A DNA stretch of 14,663 nt from an uncultured Planctomycetaceae bacterium (lineage in GTDB: Bacteria > Planctomycetota > Planctomycetia > Pirellulales > Pirellulaceae). The number at the start of each line of letters is the position of its first letter. Within the stretch, counting starts at the first letter, position 1. The position numbers and the translations under genes were made by a program. The DNA lies in the NCBI GenBank assembly GCA_903927685.1, contig CAIYOB010001037.1, positions 1 to 14,663 on the forward strand. The letters are read 5' to 3'. The notes under the pieces are model-generated. The model made no database searches, had not been told where the DNA came from, and worked only from the letters and a program-made list of their open reading frames with translations. Positions 2,725 to 14,204 of the stretch are shown here, in pieces.

Positions 2725-2952
2725 ATGGTCAAGTTGGACGAGTTTGTCACGATCAACCAGGCGGCCCGGTTTCTTCGTGTTTCGCCCAACACGTTGAGAA
2801 ACTGGCATCGCGACGCCAAGATCCCCGTTTACCGCAACCCCATCAGCGGCTATCGGCTGTTCAAGAAGGCCGATCTGGAGGAGTTGCTGCGTCGGATCGA
2901 GAAGTCTGGGAAGTACCCGACCGGCTGGAGCCGGCCGAAGAAGCCGAAGTGA
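2725..2952 (+). CDS. Small excisionase/MerR-type helix-turn-helix protein (75 aa)
   Basis: A single-domain DNA-binding protein of the HTH_17 (excisionase/BldC-like) type. Residues 8-50 read FVTINQAARFLRVSPNTLRNWHR and then IPVYRNPISGYRLFKKADLEELL. This is the helix-turn-helix plus the small wing that inserts an arginine-bearing loop (GYRLF). The basic C-terminus (GWSRPKKPK) probably adds DNA contact. A GGAGGG ribosome site lies 6 bases before the ATG. It stands first in the island and reads toward the defence-like genes, so it may be their regulator or a relic of a mobile-element excisionase. The sequence does not distinguish these. It is in the same reading frame as the next ORF, from which it is separated by one stop. 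Confidence 0.85.
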   Translation: MVKLDEFVTINQAARFLRVSPNTLRNWHRDAKIPVYRNPISGYRLFKKADLEELLRRIEKSGKYPTGWSRPKKPK

Positions 2953-2973
2953 ACTGCCAATGGTCCCGCTCGG

Positions 2974-3552
2974 TTGGGGGAGGGCTTCAGCGAATCGAAA
3001 ATCATCGTGACGACCAAACATCAAACCAGCACAATCATCCGCGATACGGGCCCGTACAGCGGACGGAATCTGGCCGGGCCGCCGCCCGGGTGGAAGACCG
3101 CGGCTGAGGCTGCCGTTGTCCACGAGGGCTTGCCAGGCTGGATCGACCAGGCGTTTCTCCACTTGGATTATCATTGCAACCGTGTTTTGCCCGCCGAGTG
3201 GTCATCGCCGGATGATCCCCCGCCGCCTTCCCTGGCGACCGTTATTTGCCAGAACACTACTTCTCTGACTGCCAGCGCTGTGGAATATGCAAATCAGTGT
3301 TGGTGGAATCGCCTCGACGAGGTGGTGCTCGCCCCGTTGCGGCGTGAGATCAACGAAAACAACGATGGCGTCCGCGTGAACATCGCGCCGTTGCAGAAGG
3401 CCGGCGTGCTGGCCGCCGATGTGTTGGCCAAGAAGGACCTCGACAAGGCCATCGCCGACCGGGCCGAGTGGCGTGCCGACGAACGCCGCTGGTGCCGCGA
3501 GGGTACACTTCCCCATCCCGGCTGGTGGCCCATCCAAGGAGAACGAGAATGA
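2974..3552 (+). CDS. Chimeric-looking ORF; C-terminal part resembles the tail of BREX PglX (probable remnant)
   Basis: The C-terminal half (about residues 111-186), with DGVRVNIAPLQKAG at 131-144 and then ADRAEWRADERRWCREG, PGWW, looks like the extreme C-terminus of a BREX PglX adenine methyltransferase. This is from memory of the family, not a search. No methyltransferase motif (such as NPPY) is present. The N-terminal 110 residues are not recognisable, include a proline-rich stretch (81-85), and look non-native. The start is uncertain: TTG at 2974 or GTG at 3007, neither with a good ribosome site, as expected if the reading frame is only the surviving end of a longer gene. Its TGA overlaps the ATPase start in ATGA, an operon junction probably inherited from the intact gene. 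It could also be a real small protein. Confidence 0.5.
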   Translation: MGEGFSESKIIVTTKHQTSTIIRDTGPYSGRNLAGPPPGWKTAAEAAVVHEGLPGWIDQAFLHLDYHCNRVLPAEWSSPDDPPPPSLATVICQNTTSLTASAVEYANQCWWNRLDEVVLAPLRREINENNDGVRVNIAPLQKAGVLAADVLAKKDLDKAIADRAEWRADERRWCREGTLPHPGWWPIQGERE

Positions 3553-4817
3553 AGATTTTGAGACTGGAAATCCAAGGGTGTCGATCACTTAAGAGTCAGG
3601 TTTGGACGCCGGGCGACCTAAATGTGGTCATCGGCCCCAACGGAAGCGGCAAATCCAACCTGTTGAGCGTCCTTGAGATGCTCACCCAGGGTGCTAGAGG
3701 CTGCCTGGGCAAGTATGTCCAAAGGGAAGGAGGGATGGAACCGCTCCTGTGGGACGGAAGGGCTGAGCAAGTACGCGTTCGCGCGAAGATGTCTCCCCTC
3801 GCGCCGTACCGCGACGAAGCGCGGGATGCTCTCACGTACGATCTTAGTTTGGAACGTCTGGGAAAATCGAGCGCCTACCGAATCGGCACCGAGATTCTCG
3901 GCAACTTCTACAAGGTCGAACAAGGCTTGATGGACCAGCCGTTCAAGCTCCTCGAACGTGACCCGCGGCACGCGGTCATCTACTCGATCGAGGAGCAGCG
4001 ATTTGTGACGCCTGAACCCTCCACGACCACGACGACGACGCCACCGACCGCCTCGCAACAAGAAGCACCTTCTTTCGTAGCTCCTGCCGATTCAGTCTCA
4101 GAGGAAGAGCCGTTGCTGGCAGCCGTGGGCGGTCCATTCGCCCCTAACCGCTTTGCGGCAGACTTCCGCGATGAACTCGCTTCCTGGGCCATCTATCAGG
4201 GTTTTCACACTCACCGGGAGGCGACAATTCGCCAAGCAACGGTGGCGCGAGCGGAAACCCGGATGCAGCCCGACGGCCAGAACCTCATTTCGGTCCTGCA
4301 CACGCTGTACACGGGAGATCGCGGGTTCAAGGAAGAGTTGAATACGGCGATGCGAGCCGCGTACAGCGATGACTTCGAGGAACTCGTGTTTCCCCCGGCA
4401 GCGGACCAGCGAGTGCAACTACGCGTGCGTTGGAAGAGTCTGCAGCGCGAGCAGTCGGCGGCGGACCTGTCCGATGGAACGCTTCGCTTCCTGTTCCTCT
4501 TGGCCGTTTTCGCGAATCCGTCACCGCCCGCATTGATCGCCATCGACGAACCCGAGACCGGCTTGCATCCCTCGATGATGCCGATCGTTGCGGAATATGC
4601 ACGGCACGCCGCTCAACGTACACAGGTCATCCTGACAACGCACTCTCCAGAACTCCTGGACGCCTTCCGTGACGAGCCACCGACAACGACCGTTGTGGAA
4701 TGGAGGGATGGGCAGACGGTGCTTCGCGTGCTCGCCGGCGATCGCCTCGCCTACTGGCTGAAGAAGTACACCCTGGGTGAGCTATACCGGTCGAAGGAAT
4801 TGGAGGCGATGTCATGA
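3549..4817 (+). CDS. AAA/OLD-like ABC-type ATPase (AAA_21, COG4637-like), 422 aa
   Basis: An ABC/SMC-class ATPase of the type found in OLD, PARIS and similar defence systems. It shows Walker A GPNGSGKS (29-36), a signature-like LSDGTLRFLFL (307-317), Walker B LIAIDEPETGLHP (329-341) with the catalytic glutamate, and the H-switch TTHSPELLDAF (363-373). The start is ATG 3549, with AAGGAG 8 bases upstream and the ATGA overlap. An in-frame GTG at 3468 would add 27 residues with no family resemblance. A threonine-rich, low-complexity insert (about 155-190, with a run of Thr) sits in the middle lobe. It overlaps the following DUF4276 gene by ATGA, so the two products are probably made in linked amounts and act together. 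No nuclease domain is fused, unlike true OLD proteins. The substrate and trigger are unknown. Confidence 0.88.
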   Translation: MKILRLEIQGCRSLKSQVWTPGDLNVVIGPNGSGKSNLLSVLEMLTQGARGCLGKYVQREGGMEPLLWDGRAEQVRVRAKMSPLAPYRDEARDALTYDLSLERLGKSSAYRIGTEILGNFYKVEQGLMDQPFKLLERDPRHAVIYSIEEQRFVTPEPSTTTTTTPPTASQQEAPSFVAPADSVSEEEPLLAAVGGPFAPNRFAADFRDELASWAIYQGFHTHREATIRQATVARAETRMQPDGQNLISVLHTLYTGDRGFKEELNTAMRAAYSDDFEELVFPPAADQRVQLRVRWKSLQREQSAADLSDGTLRFLFLLAVFANPSPPALIAIDEPETGLHPSMMPIVAEYARHAAQRTQVILTTHSPELLDAFRDEPPTTTVVEWRDGQTVLRVLAGDRLAYWLKKYTLGELYRSKELEAMS

Positions 4818-5440
4818 AGTTCATCCTACTGGTCGAGGGCGATGCGGAGAAACTCGCAATCGCCGACTTCTTGAAGCGTTGGCTTGACCCGCAACTGAAG
4901 CAACCGGCAGGGGTGAAGGTCGTGAACTTCCACGGCAACAGCCAGCTTGTTCGGAAGATTGTCACCAAGGCGCAAGACTACTTGGACGCCCCCGAGGCCG
5001 CCGAGATCATTGGCGTCGTCGGTCTGCTAGATCTTTACGGGCTCGACATCTATCCGCCGCAGCTTTCCACGGTGAAGGAACGGTACGACTGGGGTGTGCA
5101 GCACTTCCAAGAGCAGGTCAACCGCGAGAAGTTCCGCATGTTCTTCGCCGTTCACGAGTTTGAGGCCTGGATTCTCGGACAACCGGACGCCTTGCCTCGC
5201 GCGGTTCGGGACGCACTTCCGAAAGCCACCGCCGTCCCCGAAAGGGTTGACTTCGACGAACCACCCGCGAAGCTCTTGAACCGGCTATATCTTTCCTGCA
5301 CGCGGAAGAACTACAAGAAGACGACCTACGGAAAACAACTGTTTGGAAAACTCACCCCGGATGTGGTTGTGGGAAAGTGTCCCTACCTGAAAGCGATGCT
5401 CGGCGAAATGCTCCTCATGGCGAGAGGGGCGGGTTTGTGA
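4814..5440 (+). CDS. DUF4276 family protein (Toprim-like), partner of the ATPase
   Basis: A 208-residue protein with the hallmarks of DUF4276. The N-terminal strand LLVEGDAEK (E8) matches the Toprim glutamate motif. VVGLLDLYGLD (68-78, D73) matches the acidic second motif, and HEFEAWIL (114-121) is the family signature. Toprim folds bind Mg2+ and cut or ligate nucleic acid. In OLD and PARIS (AriB) the Toprim part is the toxic nuclease released or activated by the ATPase. By analogy this is the likely effector of the pair, which is inference. The ATG at 4814 overlaps the ATPase TGA, so it is translationally coupled. The basic C-terminal half (RKNYKKTTYGKQ) could contact nucleic acid. Length is normal for the family, with no sign of decay. 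Confidence 0.85.
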   Translation: MKFILLVEGDAEKLAIADFLKRWLDPQLKQPAGVKVVNFHGNSQLVRKIVTKAQDYLDAPEAAEIIGVVGLLDLYGLDIYPPQLSTVKERYDWGVQHFQEQVNREKFRMFFAVHEFEAWILGQPDALPRAVRDALPKATAVPERVDFDEPPAKLLNRLYLSCTRKNYKKTTYGKQLFGKLTPDVVVGKCPYLKAMLGEMLLMARGAGL

Positions 5441-5468
5441 CGATGCGGCGGGCTGGCGGGAAGGCACC

Positions 5469-7151
5469 ATGAAACAACTCTTCACCGAAACCGAACTCCG
5501 CGAGTTGCTCCAGCAGGACGAGGGCCAGTTCCTGGAGTTCAAGTCGCTCTGGGACCTGTCCGGCGGCACGCGGAAGGTCCTCGAACGCCGCACCGTCCGC
5601 GACAAGATCGCCGAGTACGTGGCGGCGTTTGCCAATGCCGATGGCGGCACGCTCGTGCTCGGCGTGGACAACGACGGGACCCTGTCAGGTCATGGGTATC
5701 CCGATGAGGCAATCACCGAGTTCCTGGCCGTGCCCCAGCGCCGGCTCCGCCCGGCCGTGGCGATCCGGCACCAGCGCATCAGCCTGGCCGGGAACGAAAT
5801 CATCGTGCTCCAGGTGGCCCTGGAGCCGGAAGCGGTGATGGTCGAGGGCGACGGATTCCCGTACCGCGTGGGCGATCAGGTTCGACAAGAACCCCAGGAG
5901 GTGATCAACCAGCGCAAGCAGGCCTACCGCACGGTGGGCTACGAGTGCCGGTTCAATTTCGACGCATCGCTCGACAACCTGGACTTGGCGTTGGCAGGTG
6001 ACTTCCTGCGCCGGTCGGTCTACCGGGACCGTGCTCCCGAAGACACCCTGCAGGAACTTGGTTTGATCGTGCCTCGCGCCGGCGGTTTTGCGATCACCAA
6101 CGCGGCCCTCCTCCTCTTTGGAAAGCGTCCTTTCGCCCGCTGGCACCCCCGGGCTGGGCTCCGCATGTTCCGCGTGGCTGGCACCGAACGTAGGCACGGT
6201 CGAGACCGCAACGTCACCCAGCTGCGCCCCCTGATTGAACCGCCGCTGGCTCTGGCGATCCCGGAGGCCCATCAACTGGCCGCCAGCCAAATCAAGAAAT
6301 CCGAGAAGCTGCACGACCTCTTCTTTCGGGAAATGCCCGAATATCCCGAATTCGCCTGGCAGGAGGCAATCGTTAACGCGTTCGCCCATCGCGACTACAA
6401 CGACCACGGCCGGGAGATCGAAGTCTGGTTCTTCGACGATCGCATGGAAGTGCTCAGCCCCGGCGACGTTGTCCCACCCGTCACGGTCGATCAATTGCGT
6501 GACCGCCAGCGCGTCCACGCCAGCCGCAATCCGCTCGTCGTCCGCGTCCTGGCGGAGGTCGGGATCATGCGAGACGAAGGCGAAGGCGTGCCGCGAATCT
6601 ACCAGGAGATGGAATCGTCGTTGTTGAAGCAGCCAAGACTAACAATCGCGGCATCCCAATTCGAGTTGGTGCTCTACAATCAGCCTGCTTTCACCGGCCC
6701 CACTGCCGAGTGGCAGGGCGTGGTCTCGCAACTGGACGTGACGAAGGCCCAGAAGCGAGCCCTGTTGGCGTTTCCGGACGGCCTCACCAACGAGGATTAT
6801 CGGACGGTCAACGGCTTGGATCGCGATCAGGCTTACCGCGAGATCCAGGAATTGGTGGCCCAGGGCGTGCTGTCCCCGGCCACAACCGTCGGACGCGGGG
6901 CAGTCTACCTGCCGGCTCCCGCCATGCAAAAAGCCACCGCGTGGCTGGAGCAGCGTCTGCCGAAACTCCAGACTTTCTTCCAAACCCACGACCGCCTCAC
7001 GAATACCGACTACCGAGAACTGATGGGCGTAACACGTAACACGGCTCGCCACGAGTTGGGGCGTTTGATGGAGGCGGAGTTCCTGGTGCAGGTCGGTGAA
7101 CGCAAATCAGCACATTACGTGATGGGGACGAAACTCGTCCCGAAGGACTGA
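5469..7151 (+). CDS. Schlafen/AlbA_2-domain ATP-binding protein with tandem winged helices (COG2865-like), 560 aa
   Basis: The N-terminal AlbA_2 (Schlafen-type) domain shows QFLEFK (20-25) and AAFANADGGTLVLGVDNDG (52-70). A GHKL-like ATP-binding C-terminal-type domain follows, with EAIVNAFAHRDYNDHG (299-314) and DRMEVLSPG. The last 130 residues hold two similar winged-helix units about 71 residues apart, beginning LTNEDYR (439) and LTNTDYR (510). Such proteins are often annotated as transcriptional regulators or RecG-C-terminal-like ATPases. They are frequent in defence islands, including next to BREX genes, and the biochemical activity is not established. The start ATG 5469 has GGGAAGG nearby and lies 28 bases after the DUF4276 stop, so it is probably in the same operon. 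It is full-length and intact. It could regulate the downstream pglZ through the inverted repeats at 7155-7246. Confidence 0.85.
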   Translation: MKQLFTETELRELLQQDEGQFLEFKSLWDLSGGTRKVLERRTVRDKIAEYVAAFANADGGTLVLGVDNDGTLSGHGYPDEAITEFLAVPQRRLRPAVAIRHQRISLAGNEIIVLQVALEPEAVMVEGDGFPYRVGDQVRQEPQEVINQRKQAYRTVGYECRFNFDASLDNLDLALAGDFLRRSVYRDRAPEDTLQELGLIVPRAGGFAITNAALLLFGKRPFARWHPRAGLRMFRVAGTERRHGRDRNVTQLRPLIEPPLALAIPEAHQLAASQIKKSEKLHDLFFREMPEYPEFAWQEAIVNAFAHRDYNDHGREIEVWFFDDRMEVLSPGDVVPPVTVDQLRDRQRVHASRNPLVVRVLAEVGIMRDEGEGVPRIYQEMESSLLKQPRLTIAASQFELVLYNQPAFTGPTAEWQGVVSQLDVTKAQKRALLAFPDGLTNEDYRTVNGLDRDQAYREIQELVAQGVLSPATTVGRGAVYLPAPAMQKATAWLEQRLPKLQTFFQTHDRLTNTDYRELMGVTRNTARHELGRLMEAEFLVQVGERKSAHYVMGTKLVPKD

Positions 7152-7154
7152 CCG

Positions 7155-7246
7155 GTTATGCGCGAAACGAGCGCATATCCACCGCTCATAAAATCCGAAC
7201 ACATATCCACGCAAAGGGTTATGAATGCTTGCGAGGTGCGCATAAC
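7155..7246. promoter_or_regulatory. Inverted-repeat leader in front of the pglZ remnant (possible operator)
   Basis: The 95-base spacer is clearly structured. GTTATGCGC (7155-7163) and GCGCATAAC (7238-7246) are perfect 9-base inverted repeats bracketing it, the second abutting the ATG. An inner hairpin TATGCGC/GCGCATA (7157-7163, 7171-7177) has a 7-base loop. A third GTTATG half-site lies at 7218-7223. CATATCCAC is repeated directly at 7174 and 7202. It is markedly more A+T rich than its flanks. This fits an operator for a dimeric regulator, or an RNA hairpin; the sequence alone does not decide. Confidence 0.55.
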
Positions 7247-8312
7247 ATGGATTCCAACTTCCGCTCCTGGTTGATCGGGGAGGTCCGGGAGATCCTGGAC
7301 CGCAAGACGACGGTACCGCCCTTGCTGCTCTGGTTGGACCCCGATCAGCAGTGGCTCGATCTGCTGCGGTCGGCCGCGGAGGCGGGCAATTGACTTGTGA
7401 GCTGACAGTGCGGCACACGAACTGGTCGTCCGGGACCGCTTCTACCGCACGCCTCGGGCGCCGCGCGTGGTTTGGTTGCCCGTGGCGCGCCAGGCGATCA
7501 CCTGGTTCAAGCCTTTCGAGCTGGAGGCTGAGGCGGTGTGGGAACGGGGATTGCTGGAGGCATTGAGGGACTTTGGCGTCTACATCCCCCGCGAACACGA
7601 GGCCGAGATGGTCTATGAGTTGCCGGCCTACGCCAGGGAGTGGTTCGACCAGCCAAAGGATGCCTGGAAGGAGCTAACCCCGGGAACGGCGCGAGGGACC
7701 TTGGTCAATGACGCCCGGATGCTCCAGGTGCTGGCCGGCGAAGCCGGGGAGTCTAACCATCTCCGGCAGGAGGGGCGTTTCGACTTCTTTGCCAGCCGCG
7801 CTGTCAAGGACTTTGGGCTGCCGGAGCCCACCGGCCAAGCCGAGGAGCCGTGGCGCGTAGCCGCGACGGCGCGACCGCTGGCGACGGAGGCCGCCGATAG
7901 TTCACCGCAGGAGGCGCTGCACGAGGTCGACAAGATCGTCCCCGCAGGCCCATCTCGAAAACGGGCTCTGGAGCTCCTGACGAGCTGGCAAAATGACGTG
8001 CGGTACATTCCGACGTTCGAGCGGCTGGTGCCCGAGGCCGACAAGACGGTTGGACTGGCCTACTGGGCACGCAACCTCAGCGCCGCACCTCGCTCGCGGG
8101 CTTCGCGGGCGGTCGAGGATGCCCTCTTCGGATTGGCCGCGGACCGACTGGATCCTCCTGCAGGTGCCTTCGGAATCTCGTCGCCACCTGGCGAGCGATG
8201 GACTCGATCTGCAATGACAAGAAAACGTTCACCGGCCCGCTTGCGGGAGACCGGCGCGGCAGCGGCGGCCGGGGAGGGATCATTCCTCCCGCGCCCGCGT
8301 GCGGGAGGGTGA
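7247..8312 (+). pseudogene. pglZ: pglZ-like BREX gene, frameshifted and truncated
   Basis: BREX PglZ is an alkaline-phosphatase-superfamily protein needed for phage exclusion. ATG 7247, with GAGGTG just upstream, opens a frame reading MDSNFRSWLIGEVREIL and LLLWLDPDQQWLDLL, which ends at TGA 7391-7393. Homology resumes in another frame from about 7401 (ADSAAHELVVRDRFYRTPR, then VVWLPVARQAITWFKPFELEAE and ELPAYAREWFDQPKDAWKELT). That frame also has a TGA at 7398, so at least one indel lies between 7384 and 7420. It continues to about 8150 (SRAVEDALFGLAADRLD) and then turns into unrelated GC-rich sequence up to the stop at 8310. Only about the first 300 residues remain of a protein normally 700-900 long, and no catalytic phosphatase core is present. 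A GTG at 7467 could give a 281-residue product. The PglZ assignment is from family recall and is moderately sure; the break is directly visible. Confidence 0.68.
8236..8308. repeat. Cluster of GC-rich hairpins downstream of csrA
   Basis: Three close palindromes: CCCGC-TT-GCGGG (8236-8247); GGGAGG/CCTCCC (8272-8277, 8285-8290); and CCTCCCGC/GCGGGAGG (8285-8292, 8301-8308). The last two are mutually exclusive. They lie between the end of the pglZ remnant and the end of csrA, which converge. They may end transcription from both sides, although no T-tract follows on either strand. A repeat-element origin is equally possible. Confidence 0.45.
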
Positions 8313-8332: not shown

Positions 8333-8554
8333 TCAATTCGCTTCCGCCCAGCAGCCCGTCTCGCACTCGGCCGCTTCCCGCCGCGGGGCGATGCCCAGTC
8401 GCTTGCGCGTCCAGATCTCTTCGCGATCAACCTGTACGCTCTCCGGCGCTTCGATCGACAACCGCACACGGCCGCCCTGCACCGACTCGACGGTGACCCG
8501 GATCCGCTCGTCGATCACGATCGTCTCGCCACACTTCCGCGATAACACCAACAT
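8333..8554 (-). CDS. csrA: Carbon storage regulator CsrA (RNA-binding translational regulator)
   Basis: A 73-residue CsrA/RsmA protein. The dimer binds GGA-containing hairpins in mRNA leaders and represses or activates translation. The whole fold is present: MLVLSRKCGETIVI (residues 1-14), RVTVESVQGGRVRLSIEAP (18-36) and V.VDREEI (40-47). R44, an RNA-contact residue, is present; the neighbouring residue is Asp where His is usual. A C-terminal extension of about 20 residues (Cys, Glu, Ala-rich) follows the core. The ATG at 8554 is preceded by a GGGAGGT ribosome site. It is downstream of and co-oriented with the TetR gene, 77 bases away with a palindrome between, so it is probably transcribed independently. 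Clear identification; targets unknown. Confidence 0.95.
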   Translation of the reverse strand: MLVLSRKCGETIVIDERIRVTVESVQGGRVRLSIEAPESVQVDREEIWTRKRLGIAPRREAAECETGCWAEAN

Positions 8555-8594
8555 GCTCTACCTCCCTGACGCGGCACGGCCGCTTCTTGCCTGG

Positions 8595-8613
8595 GACGGA
8601 TGTCCCATCCGTC
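8595..8613. repeat. Perfect palindrome GACGGATG-TCC-CATCCGTC
   Basis: An 8-base inverted repeat with a 3-base loop sits between the tetR stop and the csrA start. Flanking GG/CC can extend the stem past a bulge. It has the look of a dispersed intergenic repeat. It could also act as a weak terminator for tetR, but no T-tract follows on the minus strand. Confidence 0.6.
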
Positions 8614-8631
8614 GCCCAAAACCACTCTGCC

Positions 8632-9240
8632 TCAACGTGCTTTCAACATTCCATCCATAAACACCGGCGCCAGTACGCCGACGATTTCCTCGGCGGGCTG
8701 CGGCTCGTTGCCGGCCAACTCGCACTCCGCCAATTGGCGGATCGCGCCCAAGACCATCTCCGCCACCCGCTTGGCGTCCAGCGGCCGGAATTCGCCGGCT
8801 GCCACACCTTGTTCGATAATCCCCGCCAATACGCCAATGACCCGGGCCCGCAGGCTGTCCTGCTCGGTCTTCAGCAGGCCGCGAACCGAGGCGTCGTTCA
8901 ACAGGAAGTCGAACAACTGCCGTTCCTGGTTGACGTGCTCGAAGTACATCCGAGCCATCGCCTCCAGCTTGCCGCGCGCCGACTGCTGACTGGCCGCGAT
9001 CTCGTGCATCTGCACGCTGATCGGCTCATACGCCTTCTGATAGACGAACTGCAGCAGGCCCCGCTTGCTGCGGAAATAGTTGTAGACGCTGCCCTTGGCC
9101 ACGCGGGCGGCGATGGCCAGCCGCTCCATCGTCAAGCCGGCGCTGCCGTGCTGGGCGATGACGGCCACCGCCGCCTCGAACAACCCGTCCCGCATCGCCG
9201 CATCCACGGCCGCTTTGCGTCGCTCCGTCAACCTGGGCAC
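8632..9240 (-). CDS. TetR/AcrR-family transcriptional regulator (202 aa)
   Basis: One-component regulator. The N-terminal helix-turn-helix spans about residues 20-67: FEAAVAVIAQHGSAGLTMERLAIAARV, then AKGSVYNYFRSKRGLL with the usual YNYF motif. The C-terminal ligand/dimer domain is all-helical and has no recognisable ligand class. The frame begins with GTG at 9238-9240; no in-frame ATG lies upstream. It is transcribed away from thrC across a 200-base control region. That region carries a good minus-strand promoter overlapped by two repeats, which suggests autoregulation. No efflux pump lies in the window to hint at a target. The family is certain; the effector is unknown. Confidence 0.92.
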   Translation of the reverse strand: MPRLTERRKAAVDAAMRDGLFEAAVAVIAQHGSAGLTMERLAIAARVAKGSVYNYFRSKRGLLQFVYQKAYEPISVQMHEIAASQQSARGKLEAMARMYFEHVNQERQLFDFLLNDASVRGLLKTEQDSLRARVIGVLAGIIEQGVAAGEFRPLDAKRVAEMVLGAIRQLAECELAGNEPQPAEEIVGVLAPVFMDGMLKAR

Positions 9241-9318
9241 CGTGATCTCGCTTTCAACACCCGCCCTCCGACAGCCCGCGGTCGGACTCGGCGAATGGAT
9301 GAAGTTGAATTACTCGAA

Positions 9319-9352
9319 CATTTTGATGAATGTGCGGTCATTTTGCTGAATT
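9319..9352. promoter_or_regulatory. Two 20-base-spaced repeats, candidate TetR operator
   Basis: CATTTTGATGAAT (9319-9331) and CATTTTGCTGAAT (9339-9351) match at 12 of 13 positions and are 20 bases apart, about two helical turns. Each is itself a weak inverted repeat (CATT-N6-AATG and CATT-N6-AATT). The right copy overlaps the predicted -10 of tetR. TGAATTAC is also repeated at 9306 and 9347. The arrangement fits cooperative binding of a regulator at this promoter. Confidence 0.5.
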
Positions 9353-9368
9353 ACAATTTTTTGGTCAA
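9340..9368 (-). promoter_or_regulatory. Candidate tetR promoter
   Basis: On the minus strand, TTGACC (9368-9363) and CAAAAT (9345-9340) are 17 bases apart, matching 5 and 4 of 6 consensus positions. This is the most A+T-rich stretch of the window. Transcription would start near 9333 and leave a leader of about 90 bases before the GTG at 9240. Confidence 0.45.
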
Positions 9369-9405
9369 GATCGGTTTGCCGGTCGAGGCCAGGCTCAGAC
9401 GTACC

Positions 9406-9434
9406 TTGAGTTTCCTTCTTTCCTCGCTTACACT
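9406..9434 (+). promoter_or_regulatory. Candidate thrC promoter giving a leaderless mRNA
   Basis: TTGAGT (9406-9411) and TACACT (9429-9434) are separated by 17 bases. A start site 6-7 bases past the -10 falls on the GTG at 9441. No Shine-Dalgarno sequence precedes that GTG, so a leaderless transcript would explain both facts. Confidence 0.45.
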
Positions 9435-9440
9435 ACGCCC

Positions 9441-10838
9441 GTGTCAACACAACCAGCTTTCCAGAAGTGTATTTCCCCTGCCTGCGGCGCCACTTACGAC
9501 GTCGCCGAAGTCCGCGTTGCCTGTGGGCGCTGCGGCGACTTGTTGGACGTCGAGTATGACTGGGACCGCTTGCAGCCCCCGTCCAGCCTGCAGGATTTCG
9601 AGCAGTACTGGGGCCAGCGCCGCGTGCCGACGCGGTTCAGCGGCGTGTGGCGGTTTCACGAGTTGCTGCCGTATGCTAGCACCGCATCGCTGGTCACGGT
9701 CGGCGAAGGCCAGACGCTGCTGCAGCAGTCGGACGGCGTGGGCGCGTATGTCGGCCTGGTCCCGGGGCGGTTGCACCTGCAGTACGAGGGCATGAACCCG
9801 TCGGGCAGCTTCAAGGACAACGGCATGTCGGCCGCCTTTACGCACGCCCGGCTGACCGGCGCGACGCGGGCTGCCTGTGCCTCGACCGGCAATACCAGCG
9901 CTTCGCTGGCCATGTACAGCGCCGTGACGCGGCTGATGAAAGCGGTGATCTTCATCGGCTCGGGCAAGATCTCGTACGGCAAGCTGTCCCAGGCGCTCGA
10001 ATACGGCGCCCTGACGGTCCAGATCCAAGGCGACTTTGATGACGCCATGGCTCGGGTCCAGGAAGTCTCGCGGGACCTGGGCATCTACCTGGTCAACAGC
10101 GTCAATCCGTTCCGGCTGGAAGGCCAGAAGACGATCATGTTCCGGGTGCTCGAAGCGCTCCGCTGGCAGGTCCCTGACTGGATCGTCGTGCCGGGCGGCA
10201 ACCTGGGGAACTCGAGCGCGTTTGGCAAGGCGTTCGCCGAGCTGGCCAAGCTGGGATTGATTCAGCGTGTGCCACGTCTGGCCGTGATCAACGCCGCGGG
10301 AGCGGATACGCTGTACGAATTGTACGATCGCCGCGGACTGCGGTGGAATGGCGGCCAAGTCGACTCGCAGCTGGTCGACGACTATTACCGCGACTTGGAC
10401 GCCCGGCACAAGAAAGCGGACACGATCGCCAGTGCGATCGAGATCAACCGGCCGGTCAACCTGCGCAAGTGCATCCGGGCTCTGGAGGTCTGCGACGGCG
10501 TTGTCCGCAAGGTCACCGACCAGGACATTTTGGACGCCAAGGCCCAGGTCGGCGCAGGCGGCTTCGGCTGCGAACCGGCGAGTGCCGCGAGCGTGGCCGG
10601 CGCCCGCCAGCTGGTCCGCGAAGGCGTCATCGGTGCGGACGAGCGCGTGGTCTGCATCTTGACCGGCCACCAGTTGAAAGACCCCACAGCCACGGTGGCG
10701 TACCACACGTCGGACCCGGAGCATTTCCAAAAGGTATTGGGCAGCCGCGGCGTCGAGCGGGCGGCGTTTGCCAATCATGCCATCGCCGTGCCCAACGACT
10801 TGGGCCAGATCATTCAAGCCATCCAGCAGCACAGTTGA
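9441..10838 (+). CDS. thrC: Threonine synthase (PLP enzyme, O-phosphohomoserine to threonine)
   Basis: Final step of threonine synthesis, in the cytoplasm. An N-terminal zinc-ribbon-like segment (C10, C15, C28, C31) is typical of one thrC group. The PLP lysine is K125 in [10 protein letters not shown], and the phosphate-binding loop is [14 protein letters not shown], followed by [15 protein letters not shown] and [10 protein letters not shown]. The length of 465 residues is normal. I chose GTG 9441 because the zinc-ribbon homology begins just after it. An in-frame start at 9330 would add 37 residues of non-conserved sequence reaching into the AT-rich control region. It is followed 2 bases later by dapB, so two branches of the aspartate family are co-transcribed. 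Related PLP enzymes such as threonine dehydratase lack the zinc ribbon. Confidence 0.93.
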
Positions 10839-10840
10839 CG

Positions 10841-11644
10841 ATGACCATGACCAAGACACGCATCGCCATCCACGGAGCCGCCGGCCGCATGGGCCGCCGG
10901 CTGGTTGCCTTGGGCAGTGCCGATCACGAGTTGCAGATTGTCGCCGCGCTCGACTGCGCCGGGCATCCGGCGCTGGGCCAGGACGCCGGCACGCTGGCCG
11001 GCGTGCCCGCGCTAGGCGTTCCGCTGACGGCGACCCTGGATACCGACGCCGACGTGCTGATCGATTTCTCGCTGCCCGCCGGGGCGGCGTCGGCGATCGA
11101 GGTCTGCCGGCGGCGCCAGCTGCCGCTGGTCATGGCCACGACGGGCTTGGAGGACGAGCAGAAGCAGGAATTGCGGGCCGCGTCCGCGCAAATCCCGATC
11201 GTCTGGGCGCCCAGCATGAGCCTGGCCGTGAACCTGACGATGAAGTTGGCTACGCTCGCCGCCAACGCGCTGAAGAGCGCCTCGAGCAGCGTGGATGTCG
11301 AGATCATCGAGCGGCATCATCGCTTCAAGAAGGACTCGCCCAGCGGCACGGCCTTGCGGTTCGGGGAACTGATCGCCGCCGAGTTGGGCCTGACCAGCCA
11401 AGTCCACGGCCGGGAAGGCGTGCTGGGCGAGCGGCCGCGAAACGAAATCGGCTATCACGCCGTCCGCGCCGGCGACAATCCGGGCGAGCACACCATCCTG
11501 TTCGGCCTGTTGGGCGAGAGCGTCGAGCTGACCGTCCGCGCCACCAACCGCGACTGCTATGTCCAAGGCGCCTTTGCCGCCGCCAAGTTCCTCGCCGGCC
11601 GCGCGCCGGGCCTGTACACCATGAACGACGTGCTGGGGCTCTAA
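10841..11644 (+). CDS. dapB: 4-hydroxy-tetrahydrodipicolinate reductase
   Basis: NAD(P)H-dependent reductase of the lysine/diaminopimelate pathway. The N-terminal Rossmann motif is HGAAGRMGRR (11-20), followed by LIDFSLP and ATTGL (99-103). The substrate domain has APSMSLAVNL (123-132), EIIERHHRFKKDSPSGTAL (154-172, with catalytic His159/His160 and Lys163-164) and the FGLLGESVELTVRATNRD tail motif. It has 267 residues, normal for the family. Start ATG 10841 is 2 bases after the thrC stop; a second ATG at 10847 is an equally possible start. The open frame extends much further upstream inside thrC, but only this part is DapB. It shares an operon with thrC, so both use intermediates downstream of aspartate semialdehyde. 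Confidence 0.95.
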   Translation: MTMTKTRIAIHGAAGRMGRRLVALGSADHELQIVAALDCAGHPALGQDAGTLAGVPALGVPLTATLDTDADVLIDFSLPAGAASAIEVCRRRQLPLVMATTGLEDEQKQELRAASAQIPIVWAPSMSLAVNLTMKLATLAANALKSASSSVDVEIIERHHRFKKDSPSGTALRFGELIAAELGLTSQVHGREGVLGERPRNEIGYHAVRAGDNPGEHTILFGLLGESVELTVRATNRDCYVQGAFAAAKFLAGRAPGLYTMNDVLGL

Positions 11645-11678
11645 TCGACTGCTGGACCCAACTTGGGAGGATTGGCAG

Positions 11679-12311
11679 ATGCGTTTCTGGAAAGTTGCGC
11701 TGATGGTCTGGTCTGTGGCCAGCGGTGTGCCTGGCGGCGAAGACACTTCCGCGTCGCGTGGGATGTCGAATCTGTCTCAGCAGGAAATGGACGAAGGCTT
11801 TGTCAGCATCTTCGATGGCCATTCCCTGGACGGCTGGCGTGGTTCCACAACGGGGTACGTCGCCGACAACGGGCTGCTGGTCTGCCAGAAGCAGGGAGGC
11901 GGGAATCTGCTCACGGTCAAGGAGTTTGGCGATTTCGTTTTCCGGTTCGAGTTCAAGTTGGAACCGGGCGGCAACAACGGCGTCTCGGTCCGGGGCCACG
12001 AGATCCAGATCCTGGACGACTACGCGGCCAAGCACCGGGACATCAAGCCGTGCCAGTACCACGGCTCGATCTACTGTACCGTGCCGGCGCAGCGCGGCCA
12101 CACCAAGCCGGCTGGTGAATGGAACAGCGAAGAGATCCGGTGCCAGGGCAGCCACTGGACCGTCACCGTGAACGACGTGGTGATCGTCGACGTGGACTTG
12201 GCCACGGTGCCGGGCGGCGACGCTCTGGCCCGGCGGACCCACGGCCCGCTGGGCTTCCTGGGCCACGGGAGCCTGGTCGAGTTCCGCAACCTCCGCATCA
12301 AACCGCTCTGA
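11679..12311 (+). CDS. Secreted DUF1080 protein (3-keto-disaccharide hydrolase-like), 210 aa
   Basis: Concanavalin-A-like jelly-roll family abundant in planctomycetes and Bacteroidetes. Some members hydrolyse 3-keto-glycosides. A short signal peptide (about residues 1-19) precedes the family opening GFVSIFDGHSLDGWRG (40-55). The domain then runs through FRFEFKLEPGGNNGVSVRG, HEIQILDD and GPLGFLGHGSLVEFRNLRIKPL, and the last segment is the typical C-terminal strand. It is a single-domain protein of normal length. A GGGAGG ribosome site lies 9 bases before the ATG. It follows dapB by 34 bases, so read-through is likely, but there is no metabolic link. The fold is firm; the substrate is unknown. 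Confidence 0.9.
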   Translation: MRFWKVALMVWSVASGVPGGEDTSASRGMSNLSQQEMDEGFVSIFDGHSLDGWRGSTTGYVADNGLLVCQKQGGGNLLTVKEFGDFVFRFEFKLEPGGNNGVSVRGHEIQILDDYAAKHRDIKPCQYHGSIYCTVPAQRGHTKPAGEWNSEEIRCQGSHWTVTVNDVVIVDVDLATVPGGDALARRTHGPLGFLGHGSLVEFRNLRIKPL

Positions 12312-12377
12312 AATCGCAACAGGGCACGGCCCTCGCTGAAGGCCCGCTCCCGGGATCACTCCGAAGGCCACGTCTCC

Positions 12378-14204
12378 ATGCCGTTAGTCTCCCTGCACGA
12401 ACTCACCATCGGTTACCGCGGTCCGCTGTTGCTGGACAGGATCAGCTGCCAGATCGACGCGGGCCAGCGGATCGGGCTGCTGGGGCGCAACGGGGCCGGC
12501 AAGTCGACCCTGCTGCGGATCTTGACGGGCGACGTCGAGCCGGACGGCGGCGCTGTCGTGTTCGCGCCGGGGACGCGGGTCAGCCTGCTCCCGCAGGAAG
12601 TGCCACTGGGGCTGACGGGCCGCTCGCGGCACGTCGTCGAAAGCGGGCTGCCGGCCGGCGAGCCGGACCCGGAAACACACTGGCAGGACGCCCTGCGGGT
12701 CGATCAGATCCTGGCCCGCATGCAGCTGGACGGCAACGTGCCGTTCGAGTCGCTGTCGTCAGGCCTGAAGCGCCGCGTCCTGTTGGCCCGAGCCCTGGTC
12801 GCGCAGCCGGATCTGCTGCTGCTGGACGAGCCGACCAACCACCTGGACATCGAGGCCATCGAGTGGCTGGAACAGTTTCTGGGCGACTGGGTCGCGACCC
12901 TGATCTTCGTGACGCACGACCGGGCGTTCCTCCGCAAGCTGGCCAGCCGGATCCTGGAACTGGACCGCGGCCAGCTGTTCGACTGGTCCTGCGACTACGA
13001 CACGTTCCTGCACCGCAAGGAACTGGCGCTGGCCGCCGAGGACAAGCAGAACGCGTTGTTCGACAAGCGGCTGGCGCAAGAGGAAGTCTGGATCCGCAAG
13101 GGTATCGAAGCTCGCCGGACGCGGAACGAAGGCCGCGTCCGGGCGCTGGAACGGATGCGGCGCGAGCGGCAGCAGCGGCAGACCAGCCCCGGCCAGGTGC
13201 GGATGCAACTGCACCAGCAGCAGCGGAGCGGCACGCTGGTGGCACAAGCGGAGAAGATCCGCTTTGCTTACGGCGAGCGCGAGATCATCCGCGATTTCTC
13301 GACCACGATCATGCGGGGCGACAAGATCGGAATCATCGGCCCCAACGGCGCCGGCAAGACGACGTTGCTCCGTGTGCTGTTGGGCCAATTGGCGCCGACG
13401 CAGGGCACGATCCGCCTGGGCACGAACCTGCAGATCGCCTACTTTGACCAGTTGCGGATGCAACTGGACGAAGACAAGACGGTCCAGGAGAACGTCGGCG
13501 ACGGCTACGACACGGTCCTGGTCGGCGGGCAGCCCCAGCACGTCCTGGGATACCTGCAGGACTTCCTCTTTACGCCCGAGCGGGCGCGGACGCCGGTCCG
13601 GTTCCTGTCCGGCGGCGAACGCAACCGGGTGCTGCTGGCCCGGCTGTTGGCCAAGCCCGCAAACGTCGTCGTGCTGGACGAGCCGACCAACGATTTGGAC
13701 ACGGAAACGCTGGAACTGTTGGAGGACATGCTGGTCGGCTACCCGGGCACCGTGCTGCTGGTCAGCCACGACCGGGCGTTCCTGAACAACGTGGTCACCA
13801 GCACGGTCGTGTTCGAGGCGGACGGCGTGCGCGAGTACGTCGGCGGCTACGACGATTGGTTGCGGCAGCGGCCGCCGGCCGCGCCGCGCACGGCTGGCGA
13901 AACCGCCGCCGGCACCTCCCGACGTTCCGACACGCCGGCGAAAACCGGCGCCGCCACCGGCCCGCCGCCGCCGGCGGGCAAGGTCCGTCTCAGCTACAAA
14001 GAGCAGCAGGAACTCGCCGCGCTGCCGGCCAAGCTGGAACAGCTGGAAGCCGAAATCGCCGCGCTCCATCAAGCCATGGCGACTCCCGAGTTCTACAAGC
14101 GGCCCGGCCCCGCCGTCGCCCGCGACGCCGCCCTGCTCCAGACCCTGGAGGAGCAACTCGCCGCGGCCTTCCAGCGGTGGGAAGAGCTGGACGCGCGGGG
14201 ATGA
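12378..14204 (+). CDS. uup: ABC-F family ATPase of Uup type (608 aa)
   Basis: Soluble twin-ABC protein with no membrane segments; ABC-F proteins act on the ribosome and, for Uup, in genome stability. NBD1 has Walker A GRNGAGKS (36-43), signature LSSGLKRRVLLARAL (126-140) and Walker B LLLLDEPTNHLD. NBD2 has GPNGAGKT (321-328), LSGGERNRVLLARLL (410-424) and VVVLDEPTNDLD. The linker carries the Uup hallmark WIRKGIEARRTRNEGRVRAL (238-257). A Pro/Ala/Thr-rich spacer (498-535) leads to a C-terminal coiled coil (about 537-605), also Uup-like. Both catalytic glutamates are present. The first signature has Ser in place of the second Gly of LSGG. It begins 66 bases after the DUF1080 gene, with no strong ribosome site. 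Assignment to ABC-F is certain and to Uup likely. Confidence 0.92.
   Translation: MPLVSLHELTIGYRGPLLLDRISCQIDAGQRIGLLGRNGAGKSTLLRILTGDVEPDGGAVVFAPGTRVSLLPQEVPLGLTGRSRHVVESGLPAGEPDPETHWQDALRVDQILARMQLDGNVPFESLSSGLKRRVLLARALVAQPDLLLLDEPTNHLDIEAIEWLEQFLGDWVATLIFVTHDRAFLRKLASRILELDRGQLFDWSCDYDTFLHRKELALAAEDKQNALFDKRLAQEEVWIRKGIEARRTRNEGRVRALERMRRERQQRQTSPGQVRMQLHQQQRSGTLVAQAEKIRFAYGEREIIRDFSTTIMRGDKIGIIGPNGAGKTTLLRVLLGQLAPTQGTIRLGTNLQIAYFDQLRMQLDEDKTVQENVGDGYDTVLVGGQPQHVLGYLQDFLFTPERARTPVRFLSGGERNRVLLARLLAKPANVVVLDEPTNDLDTETLELLEDMLVGYPGTVLLVSHDRAFLNNVVTSTVVFEADGVREYVGGYDDWLRQRPPAAPRTAGETAAGTSRRSDTPAKTGAATGPPPPAGKVRLSYKEQQELAALPAKLEQLEAEIAALHQAMATPEFYKRPGPAVARDAALLQTLEEQLAAAFQRWEELDARG

Follow-up and report, generated by a model that had tools for sequence, protein, structure and literature searches.

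The 14,663-nt contig CAIYOB010001037.1 of an uncultured Planctomycetaceae bacterium (assembly GCA_903927685.1; hereafter the window) carries, judging from its sequence, a type-1 bacteriophage exclusion (BREX) operon that is largely deleted. Between the remnants of its core genes pglX and pglZ, a PARIS-like pair of the HEC-01 type (HEC, Hma-embedded candidate), which consists of an OLD/ABC-type ATPase and a TOPRIM-like DUF4276 protein, and a Schlafen-like AlbA_2 gene have probably persisted after the loss of BREX (Table 1). By six-frame reading, a small helix-turn-helix (HTH) gene, a fusion frame, the three middle genes and two pglZ pieces all lie on the + strand.

Remnants of the BREX core

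The open reading frame at 2974, which an earlier note on this DNA had taken for a PglX fragment, does end in the PglX C-terminus, but is actually a BrxA::PglX fusion with a BrxA motif at 3037. Its tail (the last 56–57 residues) is 72–91% identical to the PglX tails of seven other loci (L188, 72%; L005, 79%; L141, 84%; L089, L139, and L187, 88%; L186, 91%; E-values 6e-21 to 1e-29). Residues 47–134 match the PglX region upstream of this tail (E-values 2e-14 and 6e-13), and relative to the other loci about 110 codons are absent between the two segments. In a scan of 3.98 million six-frame residues from 201 sequences, the BrxA start motif was found at 10–11 of 11 residues only in the BrxA starts of three distinct loci and in the window, with the next best hit reaching 7; two BrxA references matched the window in tblastn searches with E-values of 0.005 and 0.015. 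The window thus seems to lack the whole stretch that would run from the beginning of brxA to near the end of pglX.

At the other end of the island, the full-length PglZ of locus L186 matched the window by tblastn (E-value 7e-107) with 58% identity over 7247–7390 and 67% over 7416–8153, interrupted by a frame break at 7391–7400; of the 830 residues, only the first 307 are covered. Although the second piece stays open as far as 8312, no similarity was found beyond 8153. As the PglZ domain of the 848-aa PglZ in L005 comprises residues 466–646, the catalytic part of the window's PglZ is lost. Recognition of the two fragments by profiles, as envisaged by the earlier note, largely failed (the PADLOC profile matched the PglX fragment with an E-value of 0.002 only, at its extreme C-terminus, and the PglZ fragment gave no profile match), since profiles were nearly blind to both; the homology became visible by tblastn with other loci. 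The C-terminal PglX and broken N-terminal PglZ fragments that the earlier note had described are thus real, and its BREX origin for the island holds. Its limits (2974–8312) do not, because the remnant already starts with the HTH gene at 2725 and PglZ similarity ends at 8153.

Tblastn searches of the window with BrxC and PglX references recovered, beyond chance-level matches, the PglX C-terminal segments only, and two BrxB and two BrxL references gave nothing at E ≤ 1e-1. These negative results cover the 14.7-kb window, and BREX may be present elsewhere in the genome. Among the hallmarks of a functional type-1 BREX, the window lacks brxC, the PglX methyltransferase domain, and the PglZ catalytic domain; as previously proposed, both core genes are lost, and BREX would therefore be unable to act here.

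The HTH gene preceding the fusion matches PADLOC mad1 (E-value 1.1e-12). A 57% identical gene lies directly 5' of a BrxA::PglX fusion in locus L155 and a 39% identical one directly 5' of a full brxA in L198; before brxA in L199 or L004, none was found at E ≤ 1e-3. A combined HTH and PglX query matched 87 of 397 genomes at E ≤ 1e-6, mostly via the HTH protein, and at five of these HTH loci (L189–L193) no BREX reference matched.

Table 1. Features of the BREX remnant and the genes retained within it.
Feature	Position	Strand	Basis or remark
Small MerR/HTH_17 DNA-binding protein	2725–2952	+	5' end of former BREX operon; HTH_17 E-value 1.8e-11
brxA'::pglX' fusion remnant	2953–3552	+	Frame open throughout; PglX segments and BrxA start motif
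BrxA N-terminal motif	about 3037–3069	+	10/11 residues
PglX segment 1	about 3091–3354	+	Residues 47–134 of fusion frame
PglX segment 2 (C-terminal tail)	about 3361–3531	+	Last 56–57 residues
OLD/ABC-type ATPase (AAA_21), HEC-01A-like, 422 aa, intact	3549–4817	+	Pfam, PADLOC, predicted fold
DUF4276 protein, TOPRIM-like, HEC-01B-like, 208 aa, intact	4814–5440	+	Pfam/PADLOC
SLFN_AlbA_2 + HATPase_c_4 protein, 560 aa, intact	5469–7151	+	Pfam
pglZ remnant piece 1, residues 1–48	7247–7393	+	58% to L186 PglZ; stop at 7391–7393
pglZ remnant piece 2, other frame, to about residue 307/830	7401–8153	+	67% to L186, 62% to L139 PglZ

The genes between the remnants

The three middle genes are named clearly by Pfam and PADLOC, which hardly recognize the outer pieces at all. 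In agreement with the earlier note, their frames are open and their motifs intact: of the columns invariant among relatives, the ATPase retains 95 of 95 (31 relatives), DUF4276 34 of 34 (32 relatives), and the AlbA_2 protein 157 of 161 (14 relatives). The ATPase matches AAA_21 (Pfam, E-value 1.6e-32) as well as the PADLOC families HEC-01A (4.1e-63) and AriA (5.1e-31), and its predicted fold resembles SMC, Rad50, OLD, GajA, and PtuA. Its ATG, closely preceded by AAGGAG, overlaps the stop codon in which the PglX remnant ends, and the start of the DUF4276 gene overlaps the ATPase stop. The best PADLOC family for DUF4276 is HEC-01B (1.7e-12), and its predicted fold matches a PARIS chain. The AlbA_2 protein contains SLFN_AlbA_2 (2.3e-17) and HATPase_c_4 (1.7e-22), both above the Pfam cut-off, followed by a winged-helix-type DIP2311-like_C match at its C-terminus that stays below it (1.4e-4; 22.5 against 27 bits), and is 85% identical to its homologue P0002.

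Both the window and L155 have in-frame junctions, which made it attractive to think that a pglX tail kept in frame couples translation of the ATPase. This idea was dropped, since the presumed native brxA start of the window is out of frame and since an in-frame brxB'::brxC' fusion in L198 has no such module behind it; coupling is not claimed.

Related BREX loci, including collapsed ones

The same pair occupies the same place in genome G448 (L139/L144), where the order is brxC-pglX-672-aa gene-ATPase (69% identity)-DUF4276 (58%)-pglZ (831 aa)-brxL. Open frames are found here for pglZ, brxL, and brxC (as far as the contig reaches), but the locus falls short of an ideal intact control because pglX contains one frameshift and one in-frame stop and the contig ends within brxC. 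In L144 (reverse strand), the pglX frame extends about 160 codons past the usual C-terminus; the pglX irregularities there may reflect decay, an error in the sequence, or phase variation. The earlier view that extra genes sit between pglX and pglZ is supported by this locus and agrees with the approximately 7,000 of approximately 9,000 genomes for which genes between co-localized pglZ and pglX are reported (PMC11341690). Other comparators are a system split in G614 between L199 (brxA-brxB-brxC and the pglX start) and L186 (the end of pglX followed by two further genes and pglZ); L089, with MazEF-like, AlbA_2-like, and ParA-like genes (named by eye) in the pglX-pglZ interval; and L005, one of the AlbA_2 loci described below, whose PglX C-terminus and PglZ both match the window pieces. 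Neither the 672-aa gene of G448 (L139:13641–15659, between pglX and the ATPase gene) nor a 346-aa gene before pglZ in L186 (2653–3693) had a Pfam match at E ≤ 0.001. In two Spirochaetales metagenome-assembled genomes (MAGs), pglX is interrupted: in L005:1060–10304, HigBA-like, AlbA_2, and PDC-S06 genes split its N- from its C-terminal part, and in L004:6638–11665 a HigA-like gene and AlbA_2 come after the N-terminal part, and the contig ends ahead of any C-terminal part (HigBA and HigA named by eye). The ancestral operon of the window would have had the order HTH-brxA-brxB-brxC-pglX-ATPase-DUF4276-AlbA_2-pglZ-brxL, most of which would have been deleted recently on an evolutionary scale.

A second collapsed locus, L155 in genome G733, shares with the window the order HTH, BrxA::PglX-tail fusion, ATPase, DUF4276. 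Its fusion is a 313-aa frame with BrxA at residues 34–158 (PF08849, E-value 4.5e-11) and PglX at the C-terminus (PADLOC 1e-4; 88% identity over the last 56 residues). It differs from the window by its longer BrxA part, a short-form PglX, the lack of any pglZ piece found, and the state of AlbA_2, of which only a truncated gene follows the open pair. The short form is indicated by a gapless pairwise match of the PglX remnant to the PglX of L005 (57% over 136 residues), although a MAFFT alignment failed to set the two segments beside each other; the window segment 3091–3354, in contrast, is present in L139, L141, and L089 and absent from L005 and L155, and thus marks the long form. These differing length forms favor separate collapses, and on sequence grounds two events are likelier than one, though not proven. 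In a tree of ATPase and DUF4276 from nine loci (supports of 41 to 100, the deep ones weak), the window and L155 were not joined and the BREX-linked copies did not group. A further collapsed BREX, L198:3093–5195 of G454, is devoid of the module and consists of the HTH gene, full brxA, and a fusion frame in which an apparent BrxB start (by eye) is joined to BrxC residues 399–695.

A survey of 397 genomes belonging to the same class as G448 detected this DUF4276 (E ≤ 1e-30) in eight: in BREX in G448, in collapsed BREX in G733, and in six others (G269, G446, G530, G582, G625, and G566), where it stands beside the ATPase and no BREX genes were found on the fetched flanks (the G530 contig being only 3.9 kb). 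Genome contigs were also scanned with an AlbA_2 alignment, and the best 80 of 154 confirmed stretches were taken as loci. A BREX reference was matched at E ≤ 1e-8 in 14 of the 80, of which 13 were counted as BREX-linked and one (L063, with a single weak BrxL match) was excluded; at 7 of the 80 loci, AlbA_2 is flanked by a pglX match and a pglZ match, all on one strand. Because of contig ends and the few references, these linkage counts are lower bounds. The occurrence patterns across genomes suggest that the ATPase and DUF4276 form one module and AlbA_2 another, so that the former treatment of the middle genes as one group holds for the recurrent pair but not for AlbA_2.

Selection or recent collapse

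A recent collapse is compatible with the data whether or not the surviving genes are under selection. Selection on the accessory genes on their own account, as suggested in the earlier note, is plausible, but the rate analyses do not bear it out. Nonsynonymous (dN) and synonymous (dS) rates were calculated against L139 alone, for the ATPase, DUF4276, and the remnants, as no close DNA was available for the AlbA_2 gene. Values of dN were 0.227 for the ATPase, 0.316 for DUF4276, and 0.283 for the main PglZ piece, and dS (1.56–1.72) was near saturation, so that the dN/dS comparison envisaged by the earlier note does not show such selection. Relative-rate counts by outgroup (window-only v L139-only changes) were 36 v 42, 32 v 39, 38 v 34, and 31 v 28 for the ATPase; 35 v 24, 32 v 23, and 32 v 19 for DUF4276; 29 v 16, 24 v 18, and 25 v 17 for PglZ; and 23 v 10 and 23 v 13 for PglX. 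The contrast between core and accessory genes was borderline (Fisher p = 0.045, 0.256, 0.197, 0.662, and 0.185 with five outgroup choices); the dN of the PglZ scrap falls between those of the two intact genes, so that the collapse looks recent; and in L041, a decayed BREX of a Planctomycetota MAG that combines scraps of BrxA and BrxC with a broken PglZ and with genes that look HigBA-like by eye, the AlbA_2 gene is broken as well, which argues against AlbA_2 always being spared.

The strongest competing explanation is that decay affects the entire island and that the three genes, with nothing selecting for them, have stayed whole only because the collapse was recent, a possibility we rate as serious, if somewhat short of an even chance. 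The PglX tail shares 49 of 57 residues with L139, compared with 47–49 among other relatives, and is thus as close to them as they are to each other. In a simulation with substitutions only (400 runs per rate), the chance of three neutral genes staying stop-free was 0.75, 0.50, 0.27, and 0.055 at 0.002, 0.005, 0.01, and 0.02 substitutions per site, respectively. However, the small lesions (the leader frame, the internal PglX deletion, and the PglZ frame break) are all located in 1.5 kb of core remnant and none in the 3.6 kb of accessory genes, for which the chance is 0.088 if two lesions are counted and 0.026 for three (a post-hoc count), and the pair is kept with no BREX found nearby in six of the eight genomes mentioned above.

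The free-standing pairs, together with the 67 of 80 AlbA_2 loci for which these references showed no link to BREX (L063 and 66 loci lacking any match), would also suit a scenario in which a free module and an AlbA_2 gene never belonged to this BREX and inserted after it had died. This scenario is improbable given that the pair is found in the same place in G448 and recurs in the second collapsed locus, and that the ATPase start overlaps the pglX-tail stop in the window, although this overlap is absent in L155 and L139. Assembly artefacts at the junctions are least probable of all, as the protein clusters to which the ATPase, DUF4276, and AlbA_2 of the window belong represent 11, 12, and 4 contigs and a similar collapse exists in G733, although neither covers the junctions themselves.

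Genomic surroundings

The flanks (497–2374 and 8333–14204) look ordinary, with genes for a GH120-insert/beta-helix protein, CsrA, TetR, a PLP enzyme, DapB, a 3-keto-disaccharide hydrolase, and an ABC protein with two ABC_tran domains. At 2619–2646, 5' of the HTH gene, two copies of a 12-base direct repeat lie 16 bases apart and, judged by eye, may mark the border of a small repeat element. Signs of mobile elements were not found in the window, where a repeat search gave many short pairs but none that read as an element end, and a tRNA search of the window found none. Among viral contigs, 14 stretches fitted the ATPase pattern and none was confirmed. The PglZ piece and DUF4276 had no match in a plasmid search; plasmid records matched the ATPase (n = 261) and AlbA_2 (n = 84), all below 60% identity.

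Relation to known systems and implications

Homology, gene order, open frames, conserved invariant columns, and predicted folds are shown by the sequence, whereas the way in which the retained genes work is inferred. In the two-gene PARIS-like module, the OLD/ABC ATPase would sense infection and then activate DUF4276 as a putative TOPRIM nuclease, which would halt the growth of the infected cell in an abortive outcome. The Schlafen-like protein, a predicted RNase with a histidine-kinase-type ATPase domain, is separate and probably also still works. HEC-01A and HEC-01B are the best PADLOC families of two adjacent genes, which identifies the pair as HEC-01-like; HEC stands for Hma-embedded candidate in PMC12988326, in a passage that does not name HEC-01. 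The window differs by having its pair, of predicted function, in a BREX remnant. With respect to PARIS, which is characterized by Ocr-like triggers and tRNA cleavage, the ATPase matches AriA more weakly than HEC-01A, and AriB is absent among the 14 PADLOC families that DUF4276 matched at E ≤ 1. MADS (MAD1–MAD8) was rejected as a candidate: the HTH protein reached 17.1 of 80 bits for MAD1 and the ATPase 86.2 of 420 for MAD3 (NCBIfam cut-offs), and the other five scanned pieces matched no mad model at E ≤ 1.

BREX-associated pairs are known from Salmonella, where PARIS ariA-ariB lies between pglX and pglZ of a type-1 BREX (PMC11341690) and an ATPase (STM4493) and a DUF4435 protein (STM4494) are described in BREX (PMC9009780); we take these to be the same pair. 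It resembles the window in combining an ATPase with a small partner at the same place in the operon, but the Salmonella partner is DUF4435 and the BREX complete, whereas the partner here is DUF4276 and BREX has collapsed. Backup effectors of BREX are described as OLD-ABC plus TOPRIM and as Schlafen plus histidine kinase plus wHTH (PMC12839542). Both module types seem to occur together in the window, and in contrast to the effectors of that survey, which as described adjoin BREX cores, its core is gone. Among the papers searched, none linked DUF4276 to BREX and PglZ, or to phage defense; collapsed BREX loci as such may already be described in print. The components are of known kinds, and the noteworthy part is the survival of the module after BREX collapse in two genomes.

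The auxiliaries of BREX have been interpreted as back-ups, either cooperating with it or guarding it. Where a back-up is left after BREX has been destroyed, it can be asked directly whether it acted as a guard, which would then be useless or harmful, or as a defense of its own, and the collapsed loci of the window and G733 are natural deletion mutants for this question. We tentatively suggest, as an idea somewhat more likely to be wrong than right, that the pglX-pglZ interval is a carrier of autonomous defense modules and that PARIS-like and Schlafen backup modules repeatedly outlive BREX, the surrounding core genes being deleted independently in different lineages and the module and the HTH gene being kept by selection. 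If true, this would constitute a natural route from embedded to free-standing defense systems.

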